Assembly (NCBI RefSeq): GCF_005876955.1
Contig: NZ_SSCL01000001.1
Coordinates: 124,001-188,000 of the forward strand
Direction: 5' to 3'
DNA: 64,000 nt
DNA from: Sinomonas gamaensis
Lineage (GTDB): Bacteria; Actinomycetota; Actinomycetes; Actinomycetales; Micrococcaceae
A model generated the notes under the pieces. It was not told the origin of the DNA and made no database searches. It worked only from the letters and a program-made list of their open reading frames with translations. Positions 40,484 through 63,620 of the stretch are shown here, piece after piece. Position numbers and translations under genes: made by a program. Position 1 is the first letter of the stretch; each line of letters opens with the position of its first letter.

Positions 40484-40485
40484 GC

Positions 40486-46112: not shown

Positions 46113-46139
46113 CGGTTCTGCGTCCTCATTCGAAAAGTC

Positions 46140-46202: not shown

Positions 46203-46225
46203 CCCATCCGCCTTCCGGAGGACCC

Positions 46226-48256
46226 ATGAGCATCGAGACCAGCGCCCACGCCTGTCATGCGGCTGACCAGCGCCCAGACTATGAAGAACACGCAGACCAT
46301 GAAGAAGACGAGCTCGCCGGCGCCTACGCCCTCGCGACCTCCCAGGAAATCAGCGCAGTCCGCGAGATCCTCGCCGAGGCCGGCCTGTGGAGCGAGACCA
46401 CCCGCGTCGCGTACCTGGGTCTCGTGGAGCCGGCACGAGGCACCCATGCCGATGCCGCCGACGGACATGCCGCCGTTGACCGCCGTTTCCGTGCCTTCCT
46501 CCACGACACCGCCGGCGCCCGCCCGCACGACGTCACGGTCTCGGTGACCCGCCGCGAGGTGGACAGGGACGTCGAGCTCGACACCGCCCTCACCGGTGAG
46601 CTGCCCGTGCTCGAGGAGGAGTTCGAGGCCGTCGAGGAGATCCTCAACGCGGACGAGCGCTGGCTCGCGGCGCTCGCGGCCCGCAATCTGGACGTCGCCA
46701 AAGTCCGCGTGGCCCCATTGTCGGCGGGCGTGTTCGAGTATCCGGAGGAGAAGGGCCGCCGGATCCTCCGCGGGCTCGCCTTCGTGCAGGAGTTCCCCGA
46801 GGATCTCCCGTGGGCCCACCCGGTCGACGGCCTCGTGGCGTACATCGACATCGTGAACCGCGCGGTGGATCAGGTCCTCGACTTCGGACCCGTGCCGGTT
46901 CCGGCCGAGCACGGCAACTTCACGGACCCAGAGCTCACCGGTCCGCTGCGCACGAGCCAGAAGCCGATCGAGATCACTCAGCCCGAGGGGCCGAGCTTCA
47001 CGGTCACCGGCGGCAATCACGTCGAGTGGGAGCGCTGGAGCCTGGACGTCGGCTTCGACGTGCGCGAGGGCCTCGTGCTCCACAACATCGCGTTCGACGA
47101 CGTCACACCCCACCAGAAGGCGCCCCACCAGGAAGCGCGTCGCCGCCGCATCCTGGACCGCGCCTCGATCGCGGAGATGGTGGTTCCCTACGGCGACCCC
47201 TCGCCCGTGCGGTCTTGGCAGAACTACTTCGACACGGGGGAGTACCTCGTGGGCCAGTACGCCAACTCGCTCGAGCTCGGCTGTGACTGCCTCGGCGAGA
47301 TCACCTACCTGAGCCCCGTGGTGAGCGACGCCTTCGGCAACCCGCGGACCATCCGCAACGGGATCTGCATGCACGAGGAGGACTGGTCGATCCTCTCGAA
47401 GCACTCCGACCTGTGGGCAGGCGTGAACTACGTGCGCCGCAACCGGCGCCTTGTCATCAGCTTCTTCACCACGATCGGCAACTACGACTACGGCTTCTAC
47501 TGGTACCTCTACCTCGACGGCACCATCGAGTTCGAGGCGAAGGCCACGGGCGTCGTCTTCACGAGTGCCTACCCGGGCAAGGGCTACGAGTACGCCTCGG
47601 AGATGGCGCCGGGCCTGGGAGCGCCGTTCCACCAGCACCTCTTCAGCGCGCGCTTGGATTTCGCGCTCGACGGCGGTCCGAACCGCGTCGAGGAAGAGGA
47701 CGCCGTGCGCGTCCCCATGGGTCCGGGCAACGAGCGCGGGAATGCCTTCACGAGGCGCCGCACCGTGATCCGCCGGGAATCCGAAGCGGCCCGCACCGCC
47801 GACATGGCGGCCGGCCGCGCCTGGATCGTCACGAATCCCGCGTCGCTCAACCGCCTCGGCGAGCCGGTCGGGTACAAGCTGCACCCGCAGGGCCAGCCCA
47901 TGCTGCTCGCCGACCCGTCGTCGTCGGTCGCCGCCCGCGCCGCGTTTGCAACGAAGGACCTCTGGGTGACGCGCTACGACGAGAGCGAGCGGTATCCCAC
48001 CGGCGACTTCGTCAATCAGCACTCGGGAGGCGCGGGGCTCCCCGCGTACCAGGCGCAAGACCGCGACCTCGACGGCACTGATCTCGTCGTGTGGCACACC
48101 TTCGGCCTGACCCACTTCCCGAGGCCCGAGGACTGGCCGATCATGCCCGTCGACCACGTGGGCTTCCGGCTCCGGCCGGAGGGCTTCTTCGATCGCAGCC
48201 CGGTCCTGGACGTGCCGCCGTCCGCTCCCCGCGAAGGCGGTCACTGCCACGCCTAG
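46226..48256 (+). CDS. Primary-amine oxidase (copper/topaquinone; tyramine-oxidase type)
   Basis: A 676-residue copper amine oxidase. N-terminal N2/N3-like domains span about 30-230. The cofactor tyrosine is Tyr420 in the TIGNYDYGF motif, the catalytic-base Asp is Asp336 in NYFDTGEY, and His469 and His471 (FHQHLF) are copper ligands; no signal peptide is present, as in Arthrobacter cytosolic enzymes. It oxidises primary amines such as tyramine, phenethylamine or histamine to aldehydes with release of ammonia and hydrogen peroxide. Start at 46226 ([11 protein letters not shown]) has GGAGGACCC just upstream. Confidence 0.94.
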
Positions 48257-48325
48257 GCGCCCGCTCCCGGGGACCCGCTCCTTGGGGGACAAGAAGCGTT
48301 CGCTGTGGGACAAGTCACACGGCAC

Positions 48326-48355
48326 GCGGCCGCAGCACGATGGTGCTGCGGCCGC
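48326..48355. terminator. Very stable hairpin between amine oxidase and permease genes
   Basis: GCGGCCGCAGCAC at 48326-48338 pairs perfectly with its complement at 48343-48355 around a GATG loop (13-bp, GC-rich stem). It lies 70 bp after the oxidase stop and 41 bp before the permease start. No T tract follows directly, so it could attenuate or stabilise mRNA rather than fully terminate. Confidence 0.7.
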
Positions 48356-48395
48356 AGCCGCATCCACCTTTTCATCCACCATCGACTGGAGAACC

Positions 48396-49928
48396 ATGAG
48401 CATCGAGACGGGCTCGCACCACGCGCAGGGGGTGACGTCGACGGGAGCGCACCATCGGGAGCGGAGGCTCGGCGTCGCGTCGGTGACCATGATGATCATT
48501 GCCGCATCCGCGCCGCTGACCGTTCTGGCCGGCGGCGTCACCACCACGTTCGCCGTGACGGGGCTTCTGGGGGTGCCCCTGTCGTACCTCATCCTGGGCG
48601 CCGTCCTGACCGTCTTCGCCGTCGGCTACGCCGCGATGAGCCGGCACGTCACGAATGCCGGGGCCTTCTACGCCTACGTCGCGCAGGGGATCTCGCGCCC
48701 GGCCGGTGTTGGCGTGTCGCTCGTGGCCCTCATGTCCTACAACCTCATGCAGGTCGGCATCTACGGCCTGTTCGGCTTCACGGTTTCGTCGCTCCTCTCC
48801 GAGCGCTTCGGCGCCGACATTCCGTGGTGGATTCCCGTCGTCGTCTGCATCGCCGTCGTCGCGGTCCTCGGTGTCAATCGGGTGGATCTCTCGGCGAAGG
48901 TGCTCGGCGCGCTCGTGGCGCTCGAGTTCCTCGTGGTGATCGTGTACGACGTCGTCTCGTTCGCCGTCGCGCCGGAGGGCGTCTCGGCGGAACCGCTGTC
49001 TCCTGCCAGCCTGTTCGTCCCGGGCGTGGGCGCGGTCCTCTCCTTCGGCATCGCGGCGTTCATGGGCTTCGAATCGGCGGCCATCTACGGCGAGGAGGCC
49101 AAGGACCCCGAGCGGACGATTCCCCGCGCGACCTACACGGCAGTCGGCGTGATCGCCGTCTTCTACGCTGTGTCGTCCTGGGCGATGGCGATCGGCGCCG
49201 GTCCGTCCCAGCTCTTCGACGTGGCCGGCAAGCAGGGCCCGGACCTGGTCTTCACGTTCCTCTCGGGCCACGTTGGCCAGATCGTCGCCGACATCGCGCA
49301 GGTCCTGTTCTGCACGAGCCTCTTCGCAGCACTCGTGAGCTTCCACAACGCCGTGGCCCGGTACTTCTTCTCGCTGGGGCGCGAGCGCGTCCTCCCGCCG
49401 TGGCTCGAGGCCACCAGCCGGCACGGCGCGCCCAAGGCGGGCTCGCTCGTCCAGACCGGGATCGCCGTCGTCGTGACTGTGGCATTCGCCATCGCCGGTA
49501 CCGGCGCGGATCCGCTGTACCCCGTCCTGACGATGTTCACCTGGCTCACCAACGCGGGCGCCATGGGCCTCGTGCTCCTCATGGCGATCGTCTCCGCAGC
49601 CGTTGTCGGCTTCTTCCGGCGGCGTCGGAATCTCGCCCGCGGCGCGTGGTCCGCTGTCGTCGCGCCCTCGCTCGGCGCAGTGTCCCTGGCCGTCGTCTTC
49701 GGACTCATCGTGGCGAACTTCGACGTCCTGCTCGGGCAGACCGAGCCCAGTGCCTTGAGCTTCGTCCTCCCGGCGCTCATTGTGCTCCCGGGGATCGCCG
49801 GAGTTGCCTGGGCCCTGCGCCTGCGGCGCGTGAGCCCGGCGCTATATCAGCGGATCGGCCACGGCGTGGAGAAAGGCGTGGCGGTCCACCACTTGGGCGA
49901 GGACGACGGCGACCAGCCGAGCCACTAG
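48396..49928 (+). CDS. APC family amino acid/amine permease
   Basis: A 510-residue permease with about twelve membrane segments. APC-family features: LGVASVTMMIIAASAPLTVLAGG in helix 1, GAFYAYVAQGISRPAGVG, and FMGFESAAIYGEEAKDPERTIPRATY between helices 6 and 7. Located right after the amine oxidase, it probably imports the biogenic amine. Start 48396 has CTGGAGAACC upstream; the first five residues (MSIET) are the same as those of the oxidase. Confidence 0.88.
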   Translation: MSIETGSHHAQGVTSTGAHHRERRLGVASVTMMIIAASAPLTVLAGGVTTTFAVTGLLGVPLSYLILGAVLTVFAVGYAAMSRHVTNAGAFYAYVAQGISRPAGVGVSLVALMSYNLMQVGIYGLFGFTVSSLLSERFGADIPWWIPVVVCIAVVAVLGVNRVDLSAKVLGALVALEFLVVIVYDVVSFAVAPEGVSAEPLSPASLFVPGVGAVLSFGIAAFMGFESAAIYGEEAKDPERTIPRATYTAVGVIAVFYAVSSWAMAIGAGPSQLFDVAGKQGPDLVFTFLSGHVGQIVADIAQVLFCTSLFAALVSFHNAVARYFFSLGRERVLPPWLEATSRHGAPKAGSLVQTGIAVVVTVAFAIAGTGADPLYPVLTMFTWLTNAGAMGLVLLMAIVSAAVVGFFRRRRNLARGAWSAVVAPSLGAVSLAVVFGLIVANFDVLLGQTEPSALSFVLPALIVLPGIAGVAWALRLRRVSPALYQRIGHGVEKGVAVHHLGEDDGDQPSH

Positions 49929-51421: not shown

Positions 51422-52267
51422 TCAGTAGCTGGCGGGGCGCTCGCCGCCGTCGGCTTTCCCAGGGGTCTGGGCGAAGCGCGCGGCGAGCTCCTCGCTCGAG
51501 CGGGCGAGGATGGCGACGTCGGCTCCCACCAGGACGAAGCGCGCGCCGGCGTCGATGTAGCGGCGGGCGGTCGCCTCGACGAAGGCGTTGACGCCCGCGG
51601 GCTTCCCCGCCTCCTGGGCGGCGGCGAGGCAGCGTTCGACGGCGGAGGTCACCTCGGGATGCTCCTGCTGGCCGAGGTAGCCCATCGAGGCAGCGAGGTC
51701 CGAGGGGCCGATGAAGATCGCGTCGACGCCGTCGACGGCGAGGATGTCCTTGACGTTCTCCACGGCCTCGGCGGTCTCGATCTGCACCGCGAGCGAGATC
51801 GTCTCGTCGGCCCGGGCGAGGTAGTCCGGGATCCGGTTCCAGCGCGCGGCGCGGGCGAGGGCAGAGCCGACCCCGCGCACGCCGTGCGGCGGGTACCGCA
51901 CGGCGGCGACGGCGGCCCGCGCCTGCTCGGCGTCGTTGACCATGGGGATGAGCAGATTCTGCGCCCCGAGGTCGAGGTACTGCTTGATGAGCACGGCGTC
52001 GTTCCACGGCAGGCGGACCATGGGCAGCACCGGGTAGCCGTGGACCGCGTGGAGCTGTGCCAGGACGGATTCGAGCGAGTTCGGGCTGTGCTCGGCGTCG
52101 ATGAGCAGCCAGTCCGCGCCCGATCCGGCCATGATCTCGGCCACGAGTGGACTGCCGGAGCAGACCCAGAGGCCGATCTTCGCGGTGCTCTGGTGATTGT
52201 TCTGGTGGTCTCCGGCCTGTTCGAGGGCGTGCCGGAAGGTCCGTTCGGGTTCTAGACGAAACGGCAT
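51422..52267 (-). CDS. hpaI: HpcH/HpaI aldolase (4-hydroxy-2-oxoheptanedioate aldolase)
   Basis: A 281-residue class II pyruvate aldolase: IGLWVCSGSPLVAEIMAGSGADWLLIDAEHSPN contains the catalytic His, then MVRLPW, VQIETAEAVENV with the metal Glu, and FIGPSDLAASMGYLG with the metal Asp. It splits 4-hydroxy-2-oxoheptane-1,7-dioate to pyruvate and succinate semialdehyde, the last step of homoprotocatechuate degradation. The start overlaps the hpaH end by 16 bp, and the gene closes the operon. Confidence 0.92.
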   Translation of the reverse strand: MPFRLEPERTFRHALEQAGDHQNNHQSTAKIGLWVCSGSPLVAEIMAGSGADWLLIDAEHSPNSLESVLAQLHAVHGYPVLPMVRLPWNDAVLIKQYLDLGAQNLLIPMVNDAEQARAAVAAVRYPPHGVRGVGSALARAARWNRIPDYLARADETISLAVQIETAEAVENVKDILAVDGVDAIFIGPSDLAASMGYLGQQEHPEVTSAVERCLAAAQEAGKPAGVNAFVEATARRYIDAGARFVLVGADVAILARSSEELAARFAQTPGKADGGERPASY

Positions 52268-53037
52268 GTCACCGTCCCCAGTGGCCCGTAGTCCGCGTAG
52301 ACGGTGTCTCCTTCGTAGACCCACATGGGCCGGGTGAACGAGCCGGCGAGCACGAGGTCCCCGGCGCGGAGCGACTGGCCGTGCTGGGCGAGCTTGTCGG
52401 CGAGCCACGCGACGCCCGATGCCGGGTGGTTGAGCACGCCCGCGGCCACGCCGGTCTCCACGATCTCCTGGTTCTGGTACAGGAGCGCCGAGATCCAGCG
52501 GAGGTCCACGTCGTGCGGCCGCACCGGGCGCCCGCCCACCACCATGGCGCCCATAGCGGCGTTGTCCGAGATGGTGTCCACGATCGTGCGGCCCTGCATC
52601 TCGATCCGGGAATCGAGGATCTCGAGGGCCGGGACTACGTAGTCGGTCGCGTCGAGGACGTCGAAGAGCGTGACGCCCGGGCCCTTGAGGTCCTGGTTGA
52701 GCCGGAACGCTAGCTCGACCTCGATGCGCGGATGGGTGTAGCGCTTCCATTCCACGACCGAGCCGTTCTCGAGGACCATGTCGTCGAAGATGACGCCGTA
52801 GTCGGGCTCCGTGATGCCGGTGGCGGCCTGCATGGCCTTGGACGTGAGGCCGATCTTCCGGCCCACGACCCGCTTTCCCTGCGCCTCGAGCCGGGAGGCC
52901 CACAGCTTCTGCACGGCGTACGAGTCTTCGATGTCCATGCCGTCGTAGCGGGTGTGCAGGAGCGGGACGGGCGTGCGCGTCCGGCCCGCCTCCACGAGCT
53001 CGTCCGCGATCGCCTCGATGGTGCGCGCGTCCAGCAT
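52252..53037 (-). CDS. hpaH: 2-oxo-hept-4-ene-1,7-dioate hydratase
   Basis: A 261-residue hydratase of the MhpD/HpaH family: DSYAVQKLWASRLEAQGKRVVGRKIGLTSKAMQAATGI, IEVELAFRLNQDLKGPGVT and VLNHPASGVAWLADKLAQHG. It adds water to 2-oxohept-4-enedioate before aldol cleavage by HpaI. It lies 2 bp after the dioxygenase gene and overlaps hpaI, in pathway order. Confidence 0.93.
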   Translation of the reverse strand: MLDARTIEAIADELVEAGRTRTPVPLLHTRYDGMDIEDSYAVQKLWASRLEAQGKRVVGRKIGLTSKAMQAATGITEPDYGVIFDDMVLENGSVVEWKRYTHPRIEVELAFRLNQDLKGPGVTLFDVLDATDYVVPALEILDSRIEMQGRTIVDTISDNAAMGAMVVGGRPVRPHDVDLRWISALLYQNQEIVETGVAAGVLNHPASGVAWLADKLAQHGQSLRAGDLVLAGSFTRPMWVYEGDTVYADYGPLGTVTCRFV

Positions 53038-53039
53038 GC

Positions 53040-54134
53040 TCAGACCTGGCTTCCGAGCTTGAAGCCCTTGGAGGCCTCGCCGTGGTAGGAGCCGGATTCG
53101 TCGCCGGGGCGGGTGTAGGAGAAGCCGTCGGCGCCGATGGTCACGGCCATCTCGGACTTGTCCTCGCGCTTGATGACCTCCTGCGGGTTGCCGTCGAGGT
53201 CGAGCACGAGGGAGGCCTCGGTGTACCAGGACGGGACCACGGGGTTGCCCCACCAGTCGCGGCGCTGGTTGTCGTGGACGTCCCAGGTGATCGTGGGGTT
53301 GTCCGGGTCGCCCGTGTAGTAGTCCTGCGTGTAGATCTCCACGCGGTGCCCGTCCGGGTCGAGGATGTAGAGGTAGAACGCGTTCGAGACGCCGTGGCGG
53401 CCGGGCCCGCGCTCGATCCGATCCGACATGCGCAGGGCGCCCATCTTGTCGCAGATCTGGATGATGTTGTGCTTCTCGTGCGTGGAGAAGGCGATGTGGT
53501 GCAGGCGCGGGCCGTCGCCGCCGGTGAGCGCGGTGTCGTGCACGGTGTCCTTGCGGTGGAGCCAGGCGGCGTAGGTGGTGCCCTCGGAGTCCTTGATGTC
53601 CTCGGAGACGCGGAAGCCGAGGCCCTCGAGGTAGGCGCGGCCGCGGGGGACGTCCGGGGTGACCTGGTTGAAGTGGTCCAGGCGCACGAGCTCCCCAGCC
53701 GAGTAGAGGTCGTAGCGCATGTGGAGGCGCTCGACGTGCTCGACCTCGTAGAAGAACTCGTACGGGAACCCGATCGGGTCCTCGACGCGGACGGCGTCCC
53801 CGATGCCGCGGACGAAGCCCTCCTTGCGGCGCTCGGTCCGGCAGCCGAGCTCCTTGAAGTAGGCCTCGGCCTTGTCCACGTCCTCGGGGGTGCGGACCCG
53901 GAAGGCGAAGGCCGCGGCGGCGGCGATCGGGCCCTTGCGCAGCACGAGGTTGTGGTGGATGAACTCCTCGAAGGAGCGCAGGTAGATCGCCTCGTCGTCC
54001 TCGTACGTCACGTGAAGGCCGAGCAGGCCGACGTAGAAGTCGCGTGACTTCTTCAGGTCCGTGACCACGAGGTCGAGGTAGGCGCAGCGGACGATGTCCG
54101 GCGCGGGGACGGAGGGGGTGGGGATGGTGCTCAT
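53040..54134 (-). CDS. hpaD: 3,4-dihydroxyphenylacetate 2,3-dioxygenase (homoprotocatechuate dioxygenase)
   Basis: A 364-residue type I extradiol dioxygenase, matching in length and sequence the actinobacterial Fe/Mn homoprotocatechuate 2,3-dioxygenases. The metal triad is His154 (RLDHFNQ), His213 (LHHIAF) and Glu266 (HRVEIYTQDYYTGDPDNP). It opens the ring of 3,4-dihydroxyphenylacetate to 5-carboxymethyl-2-hydroxymuconate semialdehyde. Start at 54134 gives MSTIPTPSVPAPDIVRCAYLDLVV. Confidence 0.95.
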   Translation of the reverse strand: MSTIPTPSVPAPDIVRCAYLDLVVTDLKKSRDFYVGLLGLHVTYEDDEAIYLRSFEEFIHHNLVLRKGPIAAAAAFAFRVRTPEDVDKAEAYFKELGCRTERRKEGFVRGIGDAVRVEDPIGFPYEFFYEVEHVERLHMRYDLYSAGELVRLDHFNQVTPDVPRGRAYLEGLGFRVSEDIKDSEGTTYAAWLHRKDTVHDTALTGGDGPRLHHIAFSTHEKHNIIQICDKMGALRMSDRIERGPGRHGVSNAFYLYILDPDGHRVEIYTQDYYTGDPDNPTITWDVHDNQRRDWWGNPVVPSWYTEASLVLDLDGNPQEVIKREDKSEMAVTIGADGFSYTRPGDESGSYHGEASKGFKLGSQV

Positions 54135-54159: not shown

Positions 54160-55665
54160 TCAGGCGCCGAACTTCGGCGTGTGGACGTCGCCGAGCGTGA
54201 TGTGCACGGCCTGCTGGTCGGTGTAGAAGTCGATCGAGCGGTAGCCGCCCTCGTGGCCGAGGCCCGAGGCCTTGACGCCGCCAAACGGCGTGCGCAGGTC
54301 GCGGACATTGTGCGAGTTGAGCCAGACCATGCCGGCCTGGATCGACTGGGCGAAGTTGTGGGCGCGCTTGAGATCGTTGGTCCACACGTAGGCGGCGAGA
54401 CCGTACTTGGTGTTGTTGGCCAGCGAAAGCGCCTCGTCGTCGTCGTCGAACGGGGTGATCGCGACGACCGGGCCGAAGATCTCCTCCTGGAAGATGCGGG
54501 CGTCCGGCTTGACGTCCGCGAACACCGTCGGCGCGACATACGAGCCGTTCTCCTGGCCCTCGGGCAGGTTCTCGGGGCGGCCACCGCCAGCCAGAAGCCG
54601 GCCCTCGGACTTGCCGATCTCGACGTAGCTCATGACCTTCTCGTAGTGCTCGGGGTGCACGAGCGCGCCGACCTGGGTCTTCGGGTCGTGCGGGTCGCCG
54701 ACCACGATGTTCTTGGCACGTTCGGCGTAGCGCTCGGTGAACTCGTCGTAGATGCTGCGCTCGACGAGGATGCGCGAGCCGGCGGTGCAGCGCTCGCCGT
54801 TGAGCGAGAAGACGCCGAAGAGGGTCGAGTCGATCGCGGCGTCGAGGTCGGCGTCCGCGAAGACCACGGCGGGGGACTTGCCGCCGAGCTCCATCGACAT
54901 GCCCTTGAGGTTCTCCGCGCAGTTCCGGTAGATGAGCTGGCCCGTCGAGGACTCGCCCGTGAAGGAGATGAGCGGCACGCCGGGGTGCTTCACGAGGGAA
55001 TCGCCCGCGGTCTCGCCGAAGCCGTTCACGAGGTTGAAGACGCCCTCGGGAAGGCCGGCTTCCTCGAAGATGTCAGCCCAGAGCGAGGCCGAGAGCGGCG
55101 TGAACTCGGCGGGCTTGAGCACGACGGTGCAGCCCGAGGCGAGCGAGGGGCCCAGCTTCCACGATTCGAGCATGAACGGCGTGTTCCACGGCGTGATGAG
55201 GCCCGCGACGCCGATCGGCTTGCGGTTGACGTAGTTGAGCTGGCTGCCGGGGACCTTGAGGGCGTTGTCCTGCTGGGCGACGATGAGGTCCGCGAAGAAG
55301 CGGAAGTTCTCCGCCGCGCGGAGCGCCTGGCCGCGGGCCTGCGTGATCGGGAGACCGGTGTCGAAGGTCTCGAGCTCGGCGAGCCGGTCCTCCTGGGCCT
55401 CGACCGCGTCGGCGATCGCGAAGAGCACCTTGGCGCGGGCGCGGGCCTTCATACGGGGCCACGGGCCGTTCTCGAAGGCCTCGGTGGCGGCGGCGACGGC
55501 GGCGTCGATATCGGCCTTCTGGCCGGAGGCGGCGGTCGCGTAGGTCGTGTTCGTGACGGGATCGAGGACCTCGAACGTCTCTCCGCCGATCGAGTCGACG
55601 CGCTTGCCGCCGATGTAGTGCTGGAGGTGCGTGGGGAGGTTCTCGGGCACGAAGTGCTTGCTCAT
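54160..55665 (-). CDS. hpaE: 5-carboxymethyl-2-hydroxymuconate semialdehyde dehydrogenase
   Basis: A 501-residue NAD-dependent aldehyde dehydrogenase. It has the family motifs ITPWNTPFM, VVLKPAEFTPLSA, FTGESSTGQLI, the catalytic Glu in MELGGKSP and Cys in NGERCTAGSR, and IFGPVVAI. It oxidises the ring-cleavage aldehyde to 5-carboxymethyl-2-hydroxymuconate. The position directly before hpaD identifies it among aldehyde dehydrogenases. ATG 55663-55665 with GAAGGAGCAACC upstream. Confidence 0.93.
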   Translation of the reverse strand: MSKHFVPENLPTHLQHYIGGKRVDSIGGETFEVLDPVTNTTYATAASGQKADIDAAVAAATEAFENGPWPRMKARARAKVLFAIADAVEAQEDRLAELETFDTGLPITQARGQALRAAENFRFFADLIVAQQDNALKVPGSQLNYVNRKPIGVAGLITPWNTPFMLESWKLGPSLASGCTVVLKPAEFTPLSASLWADIFEEAGLPEGVFNLVNGFGETAGDSLVKHPGVPLISFTGESSTGQLIYRNCAENLKGMSMELGGKSPAVVFADADLDAAIDSTLFGVFSLNGERCTAGSRILVERSIYDEFTERYAERAKNIVVGDPHDPKTQVGALVHPEHYEKVMSYVEIGKSEGRLLAGGGRPENLPEGQENGSYVAPTVFADVKPDARIFQEEIFGPVVAITPFDDDDEALSLANNTKYGLAAYVWTNDLKRAHNFAQSIQAGMVWLNSHNVRDLRTPFGGVKASGLGHEGGYRSIDFYTDQQAVHITLGDVHTPKFGA

Positions 55666-55697: not shown

Positions 55698-56420
55698 TCA
55701 GAGGTTCGGGAAATTCGGGTGCGCGTCGGTCCGCGCGAGGTAGGCGTCGAGTGTTGCCGAGCGGTGGCGCCGAGCGGCAATCTCGATCTCCGACGTCGGA
55801 GCCCCGCTCTCGATGAGCCGCAGGAGCTCCTCGTGCTCCTCCACGGATTCGCTCGCGCGCTCCGGGACGAAGCTGAACGTCGAGCCGCGGAGCGCCGTGA
55901 GCCGATTCCAGCCGCGGTGGACGAGATCGAGGATGTGCGGGTTCGGGCAGTGCTCGAACAGCACGCTGTGGAAGTCGTGGTTGAGCTGGGTGAATTGGAC
56001 GGGATCGAAGCTGTCGGGGAAATCGGCGACCATGGCTCGCATCCGCGTGTTCACTTCGCGGGCGGCCGCCAGGTCCTGATGGCCGACGGCGGGCGCGGAC
56101 AGGGCGGTCGCGGCACCTTCCACGAGGCTCAGCGTCTGCATCGTGTAGAGGTACTCGACCGGATCGATCCCGGCCACGGTGGCCCCCACGTTCTTCTCGA
56201 AGGTTACGAGCCCTTCAGCCTCAAGGCGTCGCACGGCCTCGCGGACCGGCACGACCGAGACCTCGAGCTCGGTCGCGACCTGTGCGAGCACCAGACGGGC
56301 CCCGGGAGCGAGGGTGCCCGAGACGATCCGCTCGTGGAGCCACTCGTAGGCGAGCTGGGACTTGCTCAGCGCAGGGGAAACGGCGGAGGTGTCCGCTGCG
56401 CTTCGCGCCGGGGCGCTCAT
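55698..56420 (-). CDS. GntR family transcriptional regulator (FCD type), inside the hpa operon
   Basis: A 240-residue FadR-type regulator: wHTH at about 18-85 (SQLAYEWLHERIVSGTLAPGARLVLAQVATELEVSVVPVREAVRRLEAEGLV), FCD domain at about 95-225 with LNHDFHSVLFEHCPN and EEHEELLRLIE. It is embedded between the FAH–RraA gene (4-bp overlap) and hpaE, an arrangement that makes it self-regulating. The tandem TCGTATACGA upstream of the operon is its likely operator. Confidence 0.9.
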   Translation of the reverse strand: MSAPARSAADTSAVSPALSKSQLAYEWLHERIVSGTLAPGARLVLAQVATELEVSVVPVREAVRRLEAEGLVTFEKNVGATVAGIDPVEYLYTMQTLSLVEGAATALSAPAVGHQDLAAAREVNTRMRAMVADFPDSFDPVQFTQLNHDFHSVLFEHCPNPHILDLVHRGWNRLTALRGSTFSFVPERASESVEEHEELLRLIESGAPTSEIEIAARRHRSATLDAYLARTDAHPNFPNL

Positions 56421-57916
56421 GGCCGGACCACCGCGGCGCCGGAAGTCTCGGCTTCGTACTTCGCGCGCCACTCGGCGTTCATCGGGAACAGCCCGTCCAC
56501 GGGATTCCCCTCGGCGACCCGCTGCGCAACCCACGCTTCCTCGCGCTCCTGCTTGACGGCGTCGTCCGCCACCTCCTCGACAAGCTGCGGTGGGATGACC
56601 ACGAGCCCGTCCTCGTCGCCCACGATCACATCGCCTGGCTGGACCGCGGCGCCGCCGCACGCGACCGTCTCGTCGACGGCCCACGGCACGTGCTTGCGGC
56701 CGAGCACGGCCGGGTGGGCGTTCGCGCCCCAGGCCGGGATGTCCATGCCCGAGACGGGGCCGAAGTCGCGGATGCCGCCGTCGGTGATGATCGCCGCCGC
56801 GCCGAGCACCTGCGCCCGCAGCGCGAGAACGTCCCCGAGCGTCCCGGAGCCCTTCTCGCCGCGGGCATCCATGACGAGGATGTCGCCTGGGCGGAGCGAA
56901 TCCACGGCGCGCTTCTGCGCGTTGTACCCGCCGCCATGGGTCTTGAAGAGGTCTTCGCGGGCCGGAATGTACCGGAGCGTGCGCGCCGTTCCGACCACCT
57001 TCGCTCCCGGTTTCGTGGGGATCAGGCCCTCGATGTGGCAGTTCTGCATGCCGCGCTTGCGCAGTTGGACGCTCAGGGTGGCTGTGCCGACGGAGCGGAG
57101 CTTCTCCGTGAGCGCGGGGGTGAGGACGCTGGCGGGCCGCGAATCCGGCTGCGCGGCGGGAGCCAGGCCGGCGGCTTCGGCGGAGCCCCACGCATCGATG
57201 CGGTCGGCGTCGGTGAGCTTCGGCATCGCGCCATACGGCTCGAGCGCCTGTGATTCGACGACCCGGTTCGAGAGGCGACCGGTGCTGAGCAGCGAACCGT
57301 CCGAGGCGGTGCCGTCCACCTCGACCTCGACGACGTCGCCCGGCCGCGCCACCGTGGCCCCCGCCGGAGTTCCGGTGAGGATGATGTCCCCCGGCTCGAG
57401 CGTCATGAGGCGGGAGAGGTCCGCGACGAGCTGGGCGAACGGGAACAGGAGCGTTCCGGTGGAGTCCTCCTGGACCAATTCGCCGTTGATCCACATGCGC
57501 ACCCGCAGGGCGGCGGGGTCGAGCTCCTGGGCCGGGAGGAGCTGCGGGCCGATCGGTGCGATGCCGTCGGCGCCCTTGGAACGGAGGTTGGAGCCCTTGT
57601 CCGGCCAGCGGAGGTCGGCGAGCCCGGCGTCGTTCGCCGCGGTGACCGCGGCGACGTAGCGCCATGCTTCGTCGGGGGAGACGCGGCGGGCGCGGGCCCC
57701 CATCACCAGGGCGACTTCGCCCTCGACCGTGAGCAGTTCGACGCCCTGCGGTCGCTCGAGGTCAGCCCCCGAGAGCGCGAGCGAGGTCGCGGGCTTCAGG
57801 AAGTACGAGGGGACCTCGGGCGTCCTGCCCCGCTGCGCAGCCCTGCTGGGGTAGTTGAGGTGGACGGCGATGACCTTGCCGGCCCCATCCAGCTGTTCCT
57901 GCGTGAGCTGTTCCAC
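56417..57916 (-). CDS. Fumarylacetoacetate hydrolase–RraA fusion protein (HpaG-like decarboxylase/isomerase)
   Basis: About 500 residues. The N-terminal half (about 10-235) is an FAH-family domain, with VALVMGARARRVSPDEAWRYVAAVTAANDAG and ILTGTPAGATVARPGDVVEVEV; the C-terminal half (about 270-490) is RraA-like, with GDILVMDARGEKGSGTLGDVLALRAQVLG, IITDGGIRDF and VIVGDEDGLVVIPP. HpaG proteins usually have two FAH domains, for decarboxylation and isomerisation; here RraA, a fold with known oxaloacetate decarboxylase/aldolase activity, replaces one. I prefer GTG 57916 (AAGGAGAG 7 nt upstream) over ATG 57952, which has no ribosome-binding site and sits against the operator. Confidence 0.88.
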   Translation of the reverse strand: MEQLTQEQLDGAGKVIAVHLNYPSRAAQRGRTPEVPSYFLKPATSLALSGADLERPQGVELLTVEGEVALVMGARARRVSPDEAWRYVAAVTAANDAGLADLRWPDKGSNLRSKGADGIAPIGPQLLPAQELDPAALRVRMWINGELVQEDSTGTLLFPFAQLVADLSRLMTLEPGDIILTGTPAGATVARPGDVVEVEVDGTASDGSLLSTGRLSNRVVESQALEPYGAMPKLTDADRIDAWGSAEAAGLAPAAQPDSRPASVLTPALTEKLRSVGTATLSVQLRKRGMQNCHIEGLIPTKPGAKVVGTARTLRYIPAREDLFKTHGGGYNAQKRAVDSLRPGDILVMDARGEKGSGTLGDVLALRAQVLGAAAIITDGGIRDFGPVSGMDIPAWGANAHPAVLGRKHVPWAVDETVACGGAAVQPGDVIVGDEDGLVVIPPQLVEEVADDAVKQEREEAWVAQRVAEGNPVDGLFPMNAEWRAKYEAETSGAAVVRP

Positions 57917-57957
57917 GAGAGCGCTCTCCTTCGGAGTCCGACTGCCTGTCATTCAGG

Positions 57958-58017: not shown

Positions 58018-58839
58018 TTACGACAGGAACTCGATCGCAGCCTGCTTGAACGCCCGCGCGGTGACCGCATTCACGTGATTCCGGCCGGGAATCAGCATGA
58101 GCTGGGCTGAGGGGACGAGCGAGTGCAGGGCCTCCAGCCCCGCCGCCCGCTCGTCCTTCTCGCCCGCCACGATGAGGATCGGCTGCTGCGGCACAGCCTC
58201 TGCGGCGTCGAACGGCTCCTCCTTGATGGCCTCCACGAGCGAGAGGAGCGCGTACATGTCGGAGTTGGGGGAGGCAAGCGCCATCGCCACAAGGTTCGCG
58301 GTGGATTCGTCGTCGATCGGGGTACCGTCGGCGAGGAAGCGCTGCGCCGCGGCCAGATCGAACTCGGCGAGCGGATCCCGGCTGCTCGGCCCGCCGAGCA
58401 CGAGGCGCCGCACGAGCGCCGGCTGGGTTGCGCCGAATTCCCACGCGAGCCGCGAGCCCAGGGAGTAGCCGATGACGTCGAGCCCGCTCTCGGGGCGCGC
58501 GGGATCGAGGGGGCGGGCCCCCTCGTCGAAGGCGATCTGGAGCAGGTCCGCCCGGATGCGGCTCGGCGAGTACGAGTCAACGTCCTCCGGAGCCGCGCTC
58601 AGGCCATGCCCCGGGAGATCGACGGCGATCACCCTCCTGCCCGCGTCGAGCAGCGCCGGGATCCACCCGCTCTGCTCCCAGTTCAGCGCCACGGAGGATG
58701 CGAAGCCGTGGATGAGGAGCACGGGCGGCAGAGGCGCCGGCGACTCAGGCTCGTGCGTCTGGACGTTGAGCCCGGGGTCCGTGCCCTCGACCGTGTGGTG
58801 AACCGGGCTGCCTGCGTGCCGTCCCATTGCCGTCTCCAT
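58018..58839 (-). CDS. Alpha/beta fold hydrolase, possible detached C-terminal half of an AcoC-type E2
   Basis: A 273-residue hydrolase with VLLIHGFASSVALNWEQSGW, VDLPGHGLSAAPE, nucleophile Ser in VIGYSLGSRLAWEFG, acid in IVAGEKDERAAG and His in IPGRNHVNAVT. It follows the lipoyl protein by 27 bp in the same direction. In acetoin dehydrogenase AcoC proteins of pseudomonads a lipoyl domain is fused to exactly this type of hydrolase domain, which suggests that the two genes together replace one E2. An unrelated esterase is the alternative. Confidence 0.85.
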   Translation of the reverse strand: METAMGRHAGSPVHHTVEGTDPGLNVQTHEPESPAPLPPVLLIHGFASSVALNWEQSGWIPALLDAGRRVIAVDLPGHGLSAAPEDVDSYSPSRIRADLLQIAFDEGARPLDPARPESGLDVIGYSLGSRLAWEFGATQPALVRRLVLGGPSSRDPLAEFDLAAAQRFLADGTPIDDESTANLVAMALASPNSDMYALLSLVEAIKEEPFDAAEAVPQQPILIVAGEKDERAAGLEALHSLVPSAQLMLIPGRNHVNAVTARAFKQAAIEFLS

Positions 58840-58866
58840 CAGTCCCTGTTCTCTCCCGTGTTTCGG

Positions 58867-59196
58867 TCAGTCGTCGTCGAGGTTGGCGCTGAGGCGGACG
58901 CGCCGTTTGGGCGCTTCCTCGCTCGGCACCGTGCCGACGATGCCCGCCGTGTCGTCCGGGACCTCGAACACGATGAGCGGCTCGCCCACCTTGATCACGT
59001 CGCCGGGCGCGCCGTGAAGCTTGAGCACCTTGCCCGACTGCGGCGAGGGAAGCTCGAGTGCGGATTTCGTGGTCTCGACCTCGACGAGCGGCTGATTCCG
59101 CTCGACCTGATCGCCCTCGCCGACGAGCCATTCGAGGACGGTGGCCTCGATGAGTCCTTCGCCGAGGTCGGGGAGGGGGAAGGGAATCTCAGCCAC
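58867..59196 (-). CDS. Stand-alone lipoyl-domain protein (E2-like, no acyltransferase core)
   Basis: A 109-residue protein: residues 1-76 are a lipoyl domain (EIPFPLPDLGEGLIEATVLEWLVGEGDQVERNQPLVEVETTKSALELPSP) with the lipoylated Lys in ETTKSALE. The last part is a short linker (RVRLSANLDDD). It lacks a peripheral-subunit-binding domain and the 2-oxoacid dehydrogenase acyltransferase core, so it cannot by itself be a complete E2. GTG start 59196 overlaps the E1 beta stop by 8 bp. Confidence 0.88.
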   Translation of the reverse strand: MAEIPFPLPDLGEGLIEATVLEWLVGEGDQVERNQPLVEVETTKSALELPSPQSGKVLKLHGAPGDVIKVGEPLIVFEVPDDTAGIVGTVPSEEAPKRRVRLSANLDDD

Positions 59197-60223
59197 GCTT
59201 GTACTCCAATACTCGTTGGATGCCGAACAGGATCCGGTCGATGTTCGGGATGTACTCGTCCTCCAGGTCGCCTGAGGGATACGGTACGTCGAAGCCCGTG
59301 ACGCGCTCAACGGGTGCCTTGAGCGTTCCGAAGCAGCGCTCGATGATGATCTGGGCCACCTCCGCGCCGAGACCGGAGGTCCGCGGCGCCTCATGGACGA
59401 CGACGGCGCGCCGCGTCTTGCCCACGGAGGTCGCCAGGGCCTCGGCGTCGATGGGCTTCAGCCAGCGCAGGTCCAGGACCTCGATGTCGATCCCGTCCTC
59501 CGCGGCGAGCTCGGCGACCTGGATGCAGCGGGAGACCATGGCGCCCCACGCGACGAGGGTGAGGTGCTTCCCCGGGCGGGCAATCCGGGCGCCGCTGACA
59601 TCGGCGGGGGACTCGGTGCTGGTGACGAGGCCCTTCTGCCAGTACCGCGACTTGGGCTCCATGAAGATGACGGGGTCGGGCATCCTTGCCGCGGCCTTGA
59701 GAAGGGAGTAGCCCTGCTGCGGGTCGGAGGGGGAGACGACCTTGAGGCCCGGGACGTGGGCGAAGAGCGCCTCGAGGCTCTCGCCGTGGTGCTCGGGCGC
59801 CCGGATCCCGCCGAAGCTCGGCACGCGCAGCGTGACCGGCATGGGCAGGGTGCCGCGGCTGCGGTAGTTCATGCGGCCGAGCTGGCAGACGATCTGGTTC
59901 ACGGCAGGGTAGGCGAAGCCGTCGAACTGGACCTCGGGGATGGGGTGGAAGCCGGCCATCGCCAGGCCGATCGACATGCCCAGGATCCCGGACTCGGCGA
60001 GCGGGGTGTCGAAGACGCGCTCCGCCCCGTGCTTTGCAGCCAGCCCGGAGGTGACGCGGAAGACGCCGCCGAGCGTGCCGACGTCCTCGCCGAGGACGAG
60101 GGCCTTGGGGTCCTCGGCGAGGATCTCGTCGAGCGCGAGGTTGAGCGCGCCCTGAAGGGACAGCTCTTGCGCTTTCGGCTGCGTGTCCATGACCGGTTCG
60201 GGGGCTGTCATCGTCTCAGGCAT
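59189..60223 (-). CDS. 2-oxoacid/acetoin dehydrogenase E1 component, beta subunit
   Basis: A 344-residue transketolase-like E1 beta: LSLQGALNLALDEILAEDPKALVLGEDVGTLGGVFRVTSGL, FDTPLAESGILGMSIGLAMAGFHPIPEVQFDGFAYPAVNQI and GIRAPEHHGESLEALFAHVPGLKVVSPSDP. It completes the thiamine diphosphate site of the E1 heterotetramer. The sequence is of the branched-chain/pyruvate dehydrogenase type. It overlaps E1 alpha by 8 bp. Confidence 0.92.
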   Translation of the reverse strand: MPETMTAPEPVMDTQPKAQELSLQGALNLALDEILAEDPKALVLGEDVGTLGGVFRVTSGLAAKHGAERVFDTPLAESGILGMSIGLAMAGFHPIPEVQFDGFAYPAVNQIVCQLGRMNYRSRGTLPMPVTLRVPSFGGIRAPEHHGESLEALFAHVPGLKVVSPSDPQQGYSLLKAAARMPDPVIFMEPKSRYWQKGLVTSTESPADVSGARIARPGKHLTLVAWGAMVSRCIQVAELAAEDGIDIEVLDLRWLKPIDAEALATSVGKTRRAVVVHEAPRTSGLGAEVAQIIIERCFGTLKAPVERVTGFDVPYPSGDLEDEYIPNIDRILFGIQRVLEYKRG

Positions 60224-61325
60224 GATCGGTCTCTTCCTGCCAGTTGGCCTTCTGTCGCAGCAGCTCGTCGGTGGGCTCCTGGAAGACCAGGTCGAACATC
60301 TCGGCGCCGGGGCGGGACCCGAGGGCCATGATGCCCTCACGCACTGCCTCGGCCTCGGCCTTGCCGGACGCATCGGCCGCGTCCAAGGCCGCGGCATCCG
60401 CGGCAGCCTCGGCCAGGATCCGTTCCCGGAGCCGCACAAGGGGGTCGGTTCCGCCGTCGGCGCGCTCCTCGTCGAGGGTGCGGTAGCGGCCGGGGTCGTC
60501 GGAAGTCGCGTGGGGACCGCGGCGATAGGTCATGGCCTCGACGATGGCGGGGCCGTGGCCGGCGCGGGCGTGGGCGACGGCACGGCGGGTGGCCTCGAGG
60601 ACGGCTGCGGCCTCGTTGCCGTCCACCTGGATGGCCGGGATGCCGTAACCGGCGCCGCGCGCGGCCACGCTGCCGCCCGCCACCTGCTTCTCCGTCGGAA
60701 CCGAAATGGCCCAACCGTTGTTCTGCACGAAGAACACCACGGGGGCCTTGAAGATCGCGGCGAAGTTCATGGCCTCGTGGACGTCGCCCTGGCTTGAGGC
60801 CCCGTCGCCGAGGTAGGTGATCGCGACGTTGTAGCCGGCTTCGGGGACCTCGCCGTGCGCGTCGAGGGTCTGGCCGTGAGCCCAGCCGACCGCGTGGAGC
60901 ACAGAGCCGGCCACGACTGCCTGGATCGGCGCGACGTGAGTCTCGGCCGGGTTCCACAGGCCGCCATGCCAGATGGCCTTGTGCGTGGACATGTACTCGA
61001 CCATGTCCACTCCGCAGGCCCGCGCGACGCCGAGCTCGCGGTAGGTGGGGAAGACGAAGTCGCGGCACACGTCGACGGCGAGGGCGGAGCCGACCTGCGC
61101 CGCCTCCTGGCCCAACTCGGGCGCGTACGCGGGGACGAGGCCCTGGCGCTGCCACGAGATCGCCGCGAGGTCCAGCTGGCGGACGGCCGTCATGAGGCGG
61201 TAGAGCTCCACGAGGTCGGAGGGTGCCACCGGGTCGACCATGGGAAGCTCGGGGAGCTGCTCCCGCGCCGCACCTGCCAGCCCCGCCCGGCCTGCCGCCG
61301 TCGTGCTCTGTGGTGAAGTCTGCAT
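60216..61325 (-). CDS. 2-oxoacid/acetoin dehydrogenase E1 component, alpha subunit
   Basis: A 369-residue thiamine diphosphate-dependent E1 alpha. The ThDP motif is ITYLGDGASSQGDVHEAMNFAAIFKAPVVFFVQNN (GDG...NN), and the phosphorylation-loop region contains YRRGPHATSDDPGRYR. ATG 61323-61325 is preferred; the longer frame runs into an AT-rich promoter region with AAAACGTAAG and AAAATGTAAG (61330 and 61382). It opens the operon E1 alpha–E1 beta–lipoyl protein–hydrolase. The substrate, branched-chain oxoacid, pyruvate or acetoin, is not certain. Confidence 0.92.
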   Translation of the reverse strand: MQTSPQSTTAAGRAGLAGAAREQLPELPMVDPVAPSDLVELYRLMTAVRQLDLAAISWQRQGLVPAYAPELGQEAAQVGSALAVDVCRDFVFPTYRELGVARACGVDMVEYMSTHKAIWHGGLWNPAETHVAPIQAVVAGSVLHAVGWAHGQTLDAHGEVPEAGYNVAITYLGDGASSQGDVHEAMNFAAIFKAPVVFFVQNNGWAISVPTEKQVAGGSVAARGAGYGIPAIQVDGNEAAAVLEATRRAVAHARAGHGPAIVEAMTYRRGPHATSDDPGRYRTLDEERADGGTDPLVRLRERILAEAAADAAALDAADASGKAEAEAVREGIMALGSRPGAEMFDLVFQEPTDELLRQKANWQEETDHA

Positions 61326-61512: not shown

Positions 61513-62910
61513 TTACTTGCTGGCGACCGCCCGGCGGCGCAGCGCGCTTCCCCCGGCGAGCACGGCGACAAGCGCGAAGGTGCTCAGCAGCTGGGGTCGC
61601 GACTCGTCACCGATGAGGCCGACGGCGAACGTCGCGGCGAGGATGACGAGGCCGAGGACGGTCAGAACCGGGAACCCGGCCATGCGAAGGGGGAGCTCCG
61701 TGCCCTCGCGGTCCGCGCGGAAACGCAGGACCAGCTGGGAGACGAGCGCCGAGCCCCACACCAGCAGACAGGTCGACCCGACGATGTTCAGCAGGATCGG
61801 GAGGACGCGGTCGGGGAAGATCAGCTCGAGCACGGTGGCGACGATGCCGAACGCGACGCTCGCCAGGACAGCCGCTGCCGGCACGCGTGCCGTCGTCAGT
61901 GACGCGAGCGCTCGAGGGGCCTCACCGCGTTCGGCGAGGGAGAAGATCATGCGGGACGCGCCATACAGGTTCGCGTTGAGGGCCGAGAGGAGGGCGACGA
62001 CGGCCACGAGCGTGATCGCCGTCGCGGCACCCGGGAGGCCCGCGGCGTCGAGGACGGCGGCGAACGGGCTCTTGAGTCCGGCCGAATTCCACGGCAGGAC
62101 CGCCGCGATGATGAAGATCGAGCCGATGTAGAAGACCAGGATGCGCCAGACGACGGTTCGGACGGCCTTGCCTACGCTCCGGGCCGGGTCCTCGGTCTCA
62201 GCCGCGGCAACCGAGACGATCTCCGTGCCGCCGAAGGCAAAGGCAACCACGAAGAGCGCCGTGGCGATGCCGCCGAAGCCGTGCGGCGCGAAGCCCTCGC
62301 CCCCGAAGTGCGCAAGCCCCGGCGACGGGACGCCCGGGATCCAGCCGAACAGCAGGGCTGCGCCGATCACCAGGAAGCCGACGATCGCGGCAACCTTGAG
62401 GAGCGCGAACCAGAACTCGAACTCGCCGAAGTTCCGCACCCGCGTGAGGTTGACCGCCGTCAACACCGCGACGAACAGCAGCGCCATGAGCCACACCGGC
62501 AGGGCGGGGAAGACGGTCGCAAGGAGGCCCGCAGCTCCGAGGGCTTCCGCCGCGATCACCACGACGAGCTGGAGCCACCACAGCCAGCCGACCGTAGCTC
62601 CGGCCACGGGGCCCAGGGCGCGGGCGGTGTAGACGGAGAAGGCGCCGCTGTTCGGGTTCGCCGCAGCCATCTCGCCGAGCGCCCACATGACGAGGATGAT
62701 GAGCGTTCCTGCGACGAGGTAGGAAATGAGGACGGCGGGCCCGGCGGCCTGGATGCCCGCTCCCGAGCCGATGAAGAGGCCAGCGCCGATCGCGCTGCCG
62801 AGCCCCATCATGGTGAGCTGCCGGGGCTTGAGTGCTGCCCCAAGCGTCGACTTCGTTGTCGTAGTCGCTTGTTCGGTGTGCGCTGCGTTTGCAGTCTGCA
62901 TAGGTGTCAT
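61513..62910 (-). CDS. Amino acid permease (APC superfamily, AAT type)
   Basis: A 465-residue permease: MMGLGSAIGAGLFIGSGAGIQAAGPAVLISYLVAG in helix 1 and 2, ALGEMAAANPNSGAFSVYTARALG, and FGGTEIVSVAAAETEDPARSVGKAVRTVVWRI are hallmarks of the AAT/GABA-permease group. It is a proton symporter, probably for a neutral or aromatic amino acid. ATG 62908-62910 is chosen because GAAGAGGG lies just upstream. It is divergent from the Lrp/AsnC gene. Confidence 0.9.
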   Translation of the reverse strand: MTPMQTANAAHTEQATTTTKSTLGAALKPRQLTMMGLGSAIGAGLFIGSGAGIQAAGPAVLISYLVAGTLIILVMWALGEMAAANPNSGAFSVYTARALGPVAGATVGWLWWLQLVVVIAAEALGAAGLLATVFPALPVWLMALLFVAVLTAVNLTRVRNFGEFEFWFALLKVAAIVGFLVIGAALLFGWIPGVPSPGLAHFGGEGFAPHGFGGIATALFVVAFAFGGTEIVSVAAAETEDPARSVGKAVRTVVWRILVFYIGSIFIIAAVLPWNSAGLKSPFAAVLDAAGLPGAATAITLVAVVALLSALNANLYGASRMIFSLAERGEAPRALASLTTARVPAAAVLASVAFGIVATVLELIFPDRVLPILLNIVGSTCLLVWGSALVSQLVLRFRADREGTELPLRMAGFPVLTVLGLVILAATFAVGLIGDESRPQLLSTFALVAVLAGGSALRRRAVASK

Positions 62911-63149
62911 TGACCCTCTTCGGTTCTTCGATGGCCGCGGCGGGGTATGCCGGACCAAGGGGACGGTGACGAGGATAGCCTCATTTTCCGACCTTGTGTG
63001 GCGCGGATCACGGCTCTGAGCAGAGTGCTAGGAGTCGCGGGTGGAGCGAGTTCGGATCTGGGCAGAATGCGCAATGGATGTTCATGCGGGCATCAATCTG
63101 TAGCATCGTGTCTGCGTGGCACCGGTGCCAAGCGAAGGGGAGTGATGCG

Positions 63150-63620
63150 GTGAAGGTCGACGAGCTGGATGCCAAGATCGTGAGGCTGTTCACGGAGGAG
63201 CAGCGCATGTCCGTCCTCGAGGCGTCTCGCATCCTCAAGGTGGCCCGCGCCACCGTCCAGGCGCGGCTCGACCGGATGATCGCCAACGGCGTGATCGCGC
63301 GCTGGGCGCCGGAGCCCGAGCCTCGGGCCTTCGGCTTTCCCGTCGTCGCGTTCTGCTTCCTGACCATCAACCAGGATCTCGGGCACGACGCCGTCTCCAA
63401 GACCCTGGCGGAAATCCCCGAGGTCATCGAAGTCCATACCGTGTCGGGCGACAGCGACCTCATGGCCCGCGTCGCCGCCCGCTCCAACTCAGACCTGCAG
63501 AGGGTCCTCGACATCATCATGGCCACGAAGGCCGTGGTCCGGTCCTCGAGCGTGATCGCCCTCAACACCCACTTCGAGGGGCGCACCCTGCCGCTGCTGG
63601 AAGCTGCCGCGCGGGGCTGA
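63150..63620 (+). CDS. Lrp/AsnC family transcriptional regulator
   Basis: A 156-residue regulator: AsnC-type HTH at about 1-60 (KVDELDAKIVRLFTEEQRMSVLEASRILKVARATVQARLDRMIANGVI) and a C-terminal RAM/effector domain (VIEVHTVSGDSDLMARVAARSNSDLQRVLDIIMATKAVVRSSSVIAL). GTG 63150 is preceded by AAGGGGAGTGA at a good distance. It is divergent from the amino acid permease and near the E1 operon; BkdR-like control of branched-chain oxoacid or amino acid metabolism is the likely role. Confidence 0.9.
   Translation: MKVDELDAKIVRLFTEEQRMSVLEASRILKVARATVQARLDRMIANGVIARWAPEPEPRAFGFPVVAFCFLTINQDLGHDAVSKTLAEIPEVIEVHTVSGDSDLMARVAARSNSDLQRVLDIIMATKAVVRSSSVIALNTHFEGRTLPLLEAAARG

Follow-up and report, generated by a model that had tools for sequence, protein, structure and literature searches.

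How does a 2-oxo acid dehydrogenase dispose of its acyl group when its own operon encodes no acyltransferase core? Such complexes are taught as E1-E2-E3 machines producing acyl-CoA. The question is raised by a minus-strand block (58018-61325) in a 64,000-nucleotide stretch of Sinomonas gamaensis (Micrococcaceae; RefSeq assembly GCF_005876955.1, contig NZ_SSCL01000001.1, positions 124,001-188,000; hereafter the window), in which genes for E1 alpha, E1 beta, a stand-alone lipoyl protein and an alpha/beta hydrolase (ABH) lie head to tail and tightly packed. Since the hydrolase occupies the place of the E2 core while the lipoyl carrier is kept, the acyl group must exit by some other route. The reading favored here, at a probability just short of one half (about 0.47), is that of a 2-oxo acid dehydrogenase with hydrolytic release and an aromatic substrate: E1 alpha/beta would decarboxylate an aryl-pyruvate, most likely 4-hydroxyphenylpyruvate (4-HPP) from tyrosine, and reductively acylate the lipoyl arm of the small carrier; ABH, replacing the missing E2 core, would cleave the acyl-lipoyl thioester with water rather than pass the acyl group to CoA, giving free 4-hydroxyphenylacetate (4-HPA); Lpd (E3), encoded elsewhere, would act in trans, reoxidizing the carrier with NAD+; and HpaBC together with HpaDEGHI would then degrade the 4-HPA. 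With slightly more reserve, the set can be proposed to represent a CoA-independent 2-oxo acid dehydrogenase lineage, which discarded the E2 core and the peripheral-subunit-binding domain (PSBD), releases the free acid via an acyl-lipoyl thioesterase, and performs an NAD-linked conversion of 4-HPP to 4-HPA in Micrococcaceae. If this is true, the acyl group on a lipoyl arm could be handed to water rather than to CoA, yielding a free acid with no loss of NADH, and Gram-positive bacteria would have a candidate enzyme system for breaking down tyrosine through 4-HPA.

E1 alpha and E1 beta show the domains of a canonical 2-oxo acid dehydrogenase complex (PF00676 in the first, PF02779 with PF02780 in the second; Table 1) and resemble pyruvate dehydrogenase (PDH)-type E1 models, both under the curated cut-offs (E1 alpha with TIGR03181, 362.7 bits against 411.35; E1 beta with NF006667, 272.8 bits against 321). 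The E1 beta start is either the ATG at 60223, with an 8-nt overlap with E1 alpha, or that at 60211, with an overlap of 0; the lipoyl gene overlaps E1 beta by 8 nt and is separated from ABH by 27 nt. The initial annotation had read the third gene as a lipoyl domain devoid of an acyltransferase core and the fourth as an alpha/beta hydrolase, and both assignments hold: the former consists of one lipoyl domain and a short tail, with PF00364 as its sole full Pfam domain match and no Pfam match to PF00198 (the E2 core) or the PSBD over its 109 residues, and the latter matches PF00561. The acceptor lysine lies in the motif VETTKS and, like an RRVRL motif, is invariant in 16/16 aligned orthologs. The C-terminal tail is conserved as GIVGxVP...RRVRL and can be matched by eye with the linker C-terminal to the lipoyl domain of two E2s of the same genome—a likeness which suggests that the lipoyl protein is an E2 truncated ahead of its binding domain.

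Elsewhere in this genome, PF00198 is found in five places, four of them E2 proteins and the fifth an OdhA-like frame of 1316 aa. A full E2 is encoded in each of three further E1 alpha/beta operons, and therefore the window set constitutes a fourth E1 alpha/beta pair, without an E2 core of its own. A Lrp-like gene adjoins two of those three operons, and Lpd lies on another contig (TIGR01350, 451 bits, above cut-off). The set is thus like the PDH and branched-chain 2-oxo acid dehydrogenase complexes in its E1 alpha/beta families, in the lysine-bearing lipoyl carrier and in the presence of Lpd in the genome. It is unlike them in that its E2 is a lipoyl domain plus a tail, lacking both PSBD and acyltransferase core, while ABH stands in the core's operon place.

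The same arrangement recurs in two sets of loci, one drawn from genomes and the other, the named set, comprising the best 80 of 556 loci in an E1 alpha search of GTDB genomes, to which all counts of named loci refer; the two overlap, sharing Sinomonas sp. ASV322 and Nocardiopsis listeri. The module profiles were built from this analysis's own sequences, and the scores therefore favor the set. A close E1 beta is present in 22/394 class genomes, the window's own included, and all 20 of the 21 others that were examined (G092 was left out) have a lipoyl protein and an ABH next to E1. The E1 alpha profile scores of the loci fall into two groups, 507-633 and 321-419, with a gap from 419 to 507. Among the high-scoring loci, a lipoyl protein and an ABH follow E1 in 38/38 of the genome set, and the 22 named ones have the lipoyl gene in 21 and ABH in 20, the misses lying at contig ends; the E2-core profile has no match at any of these 60 module loci (38 genome, 22 named). 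Among the low-scoring loci, an E2 core is present in 3/3 of the genome set and 51/58 of the named set, and ABH in 0/61; of the seven named ones without an E2 core, six lie at contig ends and one is a Chloroflexota locus (L144) considered below. Altogether, 112 loci show either component, 58 having ABH and 54 an E2 core, and none has both.

The high-scoring named loci come from Nocardiopsis, Streptomonospora, Allosalinactinospora, Saccharopolyspora, Cryobacterium, Arthrobacter, Paenarthrobacter, Sinomonas and an uncultured member of the Micrococcaceae. Within the genus, 13/14 relatives have the four genes and the hpa cluster, the exception being G004, and among 11 further family genomes with an ABH relative, the set is present in 5. 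Because the same order is found in 38/38 genome loci and 20/22 named loci, the four-gene block is real rather than fortuitous, with no E2 core in the set; ABH as a chance neighbor can be rejected, and the hydrolase belongs with the E1/lipoyl genes, as had been surmised at the outset. What emerges is a conserved E1 lineage in which a hydrolase takes the position held in other operons by the E2 core.

This distribution bears upon a suggestion already present in the initial annotation, namely that the lipoyl protein borrows an E2 core from another complex, which would move the acyl group from the small carrier to CoA, leaving ABH as an acyl-CoA thioesterase or an unrelated protein. The parts are at hand, as the genome search for a further E2 core and E3 recovered the four E2 proteins, the OdhA-like protein and Lpd; all 24 genomes searched contain between 4 and 6 PF00198 matches, whether or not the set is present, and in actinobacteria OdhA/AceF provide a known case of one complex borrowing the lipoyl group of another. 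However, borrowing leaves unexplained both the mutual exclusion of ABH and E2 core and the association of ABH with the same E1 in Nocardiopsis, Saccharopolyspora and Cryobacterium, and the carrier has no PSBD match. Such a borrowed core is possible but, on balance, unlikely.

Hydrolytic release, as favored here, would require of ABH an alpha/beta hydrolase fold with a Ser-Asp-His triad, and both are present. The triad of Ser126 (in the nucleophile elbow GYSLG), Asp229 and His255 is intact in the window protein and invariant in 25 aligned homologs and in 26/26 of a second alignment; the AlphaFold model (pLDDT 92) has the alpha/beta hydrolase fold. The PDB neighbors of this model—haloperoxidases, esterases, MenH, a thioesterase and others—are so mixed that the fold alone is silent on the substrate. 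A precedent for such hydrolysis is human ABHD11, an alpha/beta hydrolase described in PMC12643935 as hydrolyzing the glutaryl-lipoyl thioester and as showing no observed activity toward glutaryl-CoA. ABH is likewise an alpha/beta hydrolase proposed to act on an acyl-lipoyl thioester, the likeness drawn here being one of fold and proposed function; whereas ABHD11 clears glutaryl adducts from a complex in which E2 is retained, ABH would furnish the normal release step.

As for the substrate, the window carries genes for the degradation of 4-HPA. The genes for the FAH-RraA fusion, GntR regulator, HpaE, HpaD, HpaH and HpaI-like aldolase lie downstream on the same strand, associated with the four-gene core but outside it; this cluster was absent from the initial annotation. 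The hpaGEDHI-type genes or hpaBC are near the set in 17/18 family genome regions (13 from Sinomonas, 5 from other genera), and 6/10 named Micrococcaceae loci have hpa genes nearby, the thresholds for "near" being our own choice; the former type adjoins the set in Sinomonas and others, and hpaBC does so in L054 and three Arthrobacter loci. Beside the set in Cryobacterium flavum, on the other strand, are genes for an aminotransferase and for a transporter resembling TrpX (311 bits, cut-off 390). The aminotransferase matches a structure labeled "putative phenylalanine aminotransferase" at 3.5e-80 and also exceeds two histidinol-phosphate transaminase cut-offs, so that phenylalanine is no more than a candidate substrate. 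These settings point to aromatic amino acids. In favor of the reading, too, HppD is found in 0/36 family genomes searched, the window's own among them, and HpaB, which by name and family acts on free 4-HPA, is encoded in the window.

A different role for ABH is that of a true acyltransferase from lipoyl to CoA, as AcoC is annotated. AcoC, an acetyltransferase by the name of its model (NF011457), unites both domains in a single polypeptide, and alpha/beta hydrolase folds acting as acyltransferases exist. Yet the adjacent hpa pathway begins from the free acid, no CoA ligase or thioesterase was recognized among the cluster genes scanned, and the hydrolase domain of AcoC is related only distantly; an account of the AcoC mechanism did not turn up in the literature listings searched. 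Transfer to CoA by ABH itself is rather improbable.

The reaction proposed for the set, i.e., 4-HPP to free 4-HPA and CO2 in Arthrobacter relatives, has the same net outcome as that of EC 1.2.3.13, 4-hydroxyphenylpyruvate oxidase (Blakley 1977), as cited in PMC5331431, PMC2991359 and PMC9338888; unlike an enzyme named an oxidase, the set would be NAD-linked via Lpd. By eye, no flavin oxidase was recognized near the set in 11 regions. Arthrobacter arilaitensis is described as using tyrosine and possessing homoprotocatechuate genes, with its 4-hydroxyphenylpyruvate oxidase gene not located (PMC2991359), and a pathway survey states that tyrosine degradation via this oxidase was omitted for lack of knowledge (PMC9007349). 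Arthrobacter Rue61a is reported to grow on tyrosine, 4-HPA and homoprotocatechuate, with A. aurescens TC-1 as its closest sequenced relative (PMC3534580); the set is present in A. aurescens TC-1 (L135). No description of an E1-lipoyl-hydrolase set was found in the titles and abstract openings searched, which covered few subscription papers and so do not show that there is none.

A number of observations weigh against this reading. Those on the substrate begin with HpaD, which is found in 35/36 family genomes irrespective of the set, so that its co-occurrence with the set is rejected as proof. Among 20 carriers of the Nocardiopsis-type set (f35), HpaD is absent from 18, and 18/20 likewise show no HppD; no close hpa genes lie near the set in 29 Nocardiopsis-type regions, nor in two Cryobacterium-type regions or the Saccharopolyspora locus. 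As the Nocardiopsis-type carriers are mostly without HpaD and HppD and have no hpa genes nearby, their substrate may be a different one. Six Nocardiopsis- or Cryobacterium-type regions read by eye yielded no pathway from the Nocardiopsis-type neighbors; by eye, a nucleoside-type transporter lies downstream in the Nocardiopsis-type regions, and near some there is a cluster resembling acyl-CoA carboxylase genes or an aldehyde dehydrogenase with 38-41% identity to HpaE. Further, a review (PMC9338888) mentions the cloning into plants of a 4-HPP oxidase from Arthrobacter globiformis, and because of this another enzyme may perform the 4-HPP step.

The remaining adverse points concern ABH itself. Its fold is a common one, and its sequence is no proof of thioesterase activity. 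On the Chloroflexota contig L144, E1 is accompanied by a stand-alone lipoyl protein, whose tail is similar, but not by an adjacent ABH; the best ABH of that genome (218 bits, the next 71) is on another contig (L223), amid genes that by eye resemble those of pilus assembly. This weakens the view that ABH is always adjacent, and it is only suggestive of a link because the ABH profile also covers ABHs that occur alone; the form without E2 may predate the four-gene operon. Such solo copies, without an E1 or lipoyl gene, are found in five family regions (L050, L051, L052, L057 and L058; 48-79% identity), in genomes without a close E1 beta (best 48-54% identity), and more distant ones are L060-L064. 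In the ABH tree, solo copies nest among the paired ones, so that the E1 and lipoyl genes were probably lost several times with ABH retained. In comparisons with close kin, two solo ABHs have dN/dS values comparable to those of paired ABHs (L050, 0.149 against 0.160; L051, 0.136 against 0.136), and the L057 pairs (0.29-0.30 against 0.36) show a constraint no weaker than that of paired ABH. ABH therefore has some further use without this E1, perhaps on other lipoyl proteins. Lastly, a Rhodococcus opacus plasmid (L044) encodes an ABH relative of 34% identity at 7992-8741, adjoining bphC and aldolase genes, with no annotated E1 or lipoyl gene in the 16.7 kb shown; beside bphC, one would expect a hydrolase of the ring-cleavage product.

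Two other roles for ABH arise from these observations. One is that of a general lipoyl-maintenance thioesterase, similar to ABHD11 and serving several complexes, with the operon link being secondary; it would accommodate the constraint on ABH in the absence of E1 and lipoyl genes as well as the remote best ABH of the Chloroflexota genome, but it provides no exit for the acyl group from the carrier in a set without an E2 core, and ABH follows E1 in the 60 module loci wherever the contig allows. We regard it as quite improbable. The other, suggested by three solo ABHs that sit in hpa clusters (L050, L057 and L058) and by the Rhodococcus relative beside bphC, is that of a C-C hydrolase acting on a ring-cleavage product in the hpa pathway; this is deemed unlikely for the ABH of the set because ABH follows E1 in 19/19 Nocardiopsis-type regions examined, yet HpaD is present in only 2/20 carriers of that type; the HsaD model, which matches ABH at 3.1e-5 only, also counts against it. 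For the solo copies, a C-C hydrolase role is conceivable.

At L050, in the Sinomonas genome G004, the Lrp, permease, ABH and hpa genes retain their usual order, with E1 alpha, E1 beta and the lipoyl gene absent between the permease and ABH, i.e., a natural deletion separating ABH from the rest of the set in a genome without a close E1 beta elsewhere. A plasmid search with ABH gave 65 records at 1e-5, all below 60% identity; settings were viewed for four, of which two are unannotated and one of the other two, that of Rhodococcus, is an aromatic cluster. The E1 beta search gave 11 records at 49-55% identity, and none of the 60 matches listed in a wider plasmid ABH search is labeled AcoC.

Does the set descend from the acetoin dehydrogenase system? 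The initial annotation had likened it to AcoABC with AcoC split in two, while noting that the E1 subunits look to be of the pyruvate/branched-chain type. The latter remark is borne out: the window E1 is 40-43% (alpha) and 46-50% (beta) identical to the E2-linked paralogs of its own genome, against 29-30% to AcoA and 37-38% to AcoB at two AcoC-type loci over the NF011457 cut-off, so that the E2-linked E1s appear to be its nearer kin. The lipoyl protein is 33% identical to the AcoC lipoyl domain over 70 aa, and ABH is 28% identical to its hydrolase domain over 134 aa (E=0.001). With NF011457 itself, the two window chains score 50.2 and 44.8 bits, respectively, where the cut-off is 307. Fused AcoC over the cut-off was found in 2/394 class genomes, the separate lipoyl and ABH genes being the form seen in the 38/38 and 20/22 module loci; 57 further genomes have matches below the cut-off, all of those listed but one starting at model position 89 at least, i.e., in the hydrolase part.

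In the E1 beta tree (34 rows), the set is a single clade (support 100/100, recovered in 99% of 200 bootstrap trees), to which L144 is adjacent (96/93); the E2-linked E1s are its neighbors, and AcoB is distant. The E1 alpha tree separates the set from the E2-linked E1s (100/100), places L144 on the E2 side, and joins to the set's side the two AcoA sequences, whose branch is very long; it is ambiguous and, by itself, does not exclude kinship with AcoA. A split AcoABC acetoin dehydrogenase would account for the identical domain set (E1 alpha, E1 beta, lipoyl and hydrolase) and for the AcoA branch, and it would have to contend with the low identities to all three Aco proteins, the position of AcoB outside the module clade and the two scores far under the NF011457 cut-off. 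With the caveat of the E1 alpha tree, descent from AcoABC is rejected on the identities and the E1 beta tree, and an acetoin dehydrogenase is the most improbable of the readings considered. The set is like AcoABC in combining E1 alpha/beta with lipoyl and alpha/beta hydrolase domains, and unlike it in that AcoC is one chain, in the higher identity of its E1 to the genome's own E2-linked E1s, and in its setting of aromatic catabolism. At the C-terminus of E1 beta, the set shows a consistent difference from E2-linked operons; this was not used as a sign of lost PSBD docking because PDH E1 beta sequences that bind PSBD show similar residues.

Table 1. Features of the window discussed in the text (positions in the window; ThDP, thiamine diphosphate).
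Feature	Position	Strand	Evidence
E1 alpha (ThDP-dependent 2-oxo acid dehydrogenase)	60216-61325	-	369 aa; PF00676 E=2.2e-68
E1 beta	59189-60223	-	340-344 aa; PF02779 6.9e-41 + PF02780 4.7e-39
Stand-alone lipoyl protein	58867-59196	-	109 aa, GTG start; PF00364 4.1e-18
ABH, proposed acyl-lipoyl thioesterase	58018-58839	-	273 aa; PF00561 1.6e-22
HpaG-like FAH-RraA fusion	56417-57952	-	PF01557 + PF03737; NF009399 794.6 bits, above cut-off; HpaG-C-term 1.9e-42, below cut-off
GntR-family regulator	55698-56420	-	PF00392, PF07729
HpaE dehydrogenase	54160-55665	-	TIGR02299 669.1 bits, above cut-off
HpaD homoprotocatechuate 2,3-dioxygenase	53040-54134	-	TIGR02295 450.1 bits, above cut-off
HpaH hydratase	52252-53037	-	TIGR02312 364 bits, above cut-off
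HpaI-like aldolase	51422-52267	-	TIGR02311 322.9 bits, below cut-off 368.8
Amino acid permease, upstream of the set	61513-62958	-	PF00324; GABA-permease, AroP and phenylalanine-transporter models all below cut-off
Lrp/AsnC regulator, divergent, upstream	63150-63620	+	PF01037, PF13404
HpaC-like flavin reductase + HpaB 4-hydroxyphenylacetate 3-monooxygenase	19145-21078	+	HpaB TIGR02309 562.7 bits, above cut-off; reductase NF052639 112.7 bits, below cut-off
Primary-amine oxidase	46226-48256	+	above cut-off
FeaR-like regulator	44569-45531	-	below cut-off
Transporter-like gene	48396-49928		by eye

In the hpa cluster, the HpaG-like FAH domain and an RraA-like domain form one chain of the NF009399 family. 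A separate HpaF isomerase was not recognized in the scanned genes, and the RraA-like portion may substitute for a missing step. Elsewhere in the window, the amine oxidase, FeaR-like regulator and transporter-like gene (44569-49928) perhaps form a tyramine branch into the same pathway. The preceding block (39500-44505), with ABC-transporter-like genes recognized by eye and then a protein of the sulfatase family (258 bits with NF010322, below cut-off), may serve the use of sulfate esters. A second alpha/beta hydrolase of the window, at 34644-35429, is 34% identical to ABH. In another Sinomonas genome, at L048, genes that by eye are transposase-like lie between ABH and the hpa genes (10751-13455).

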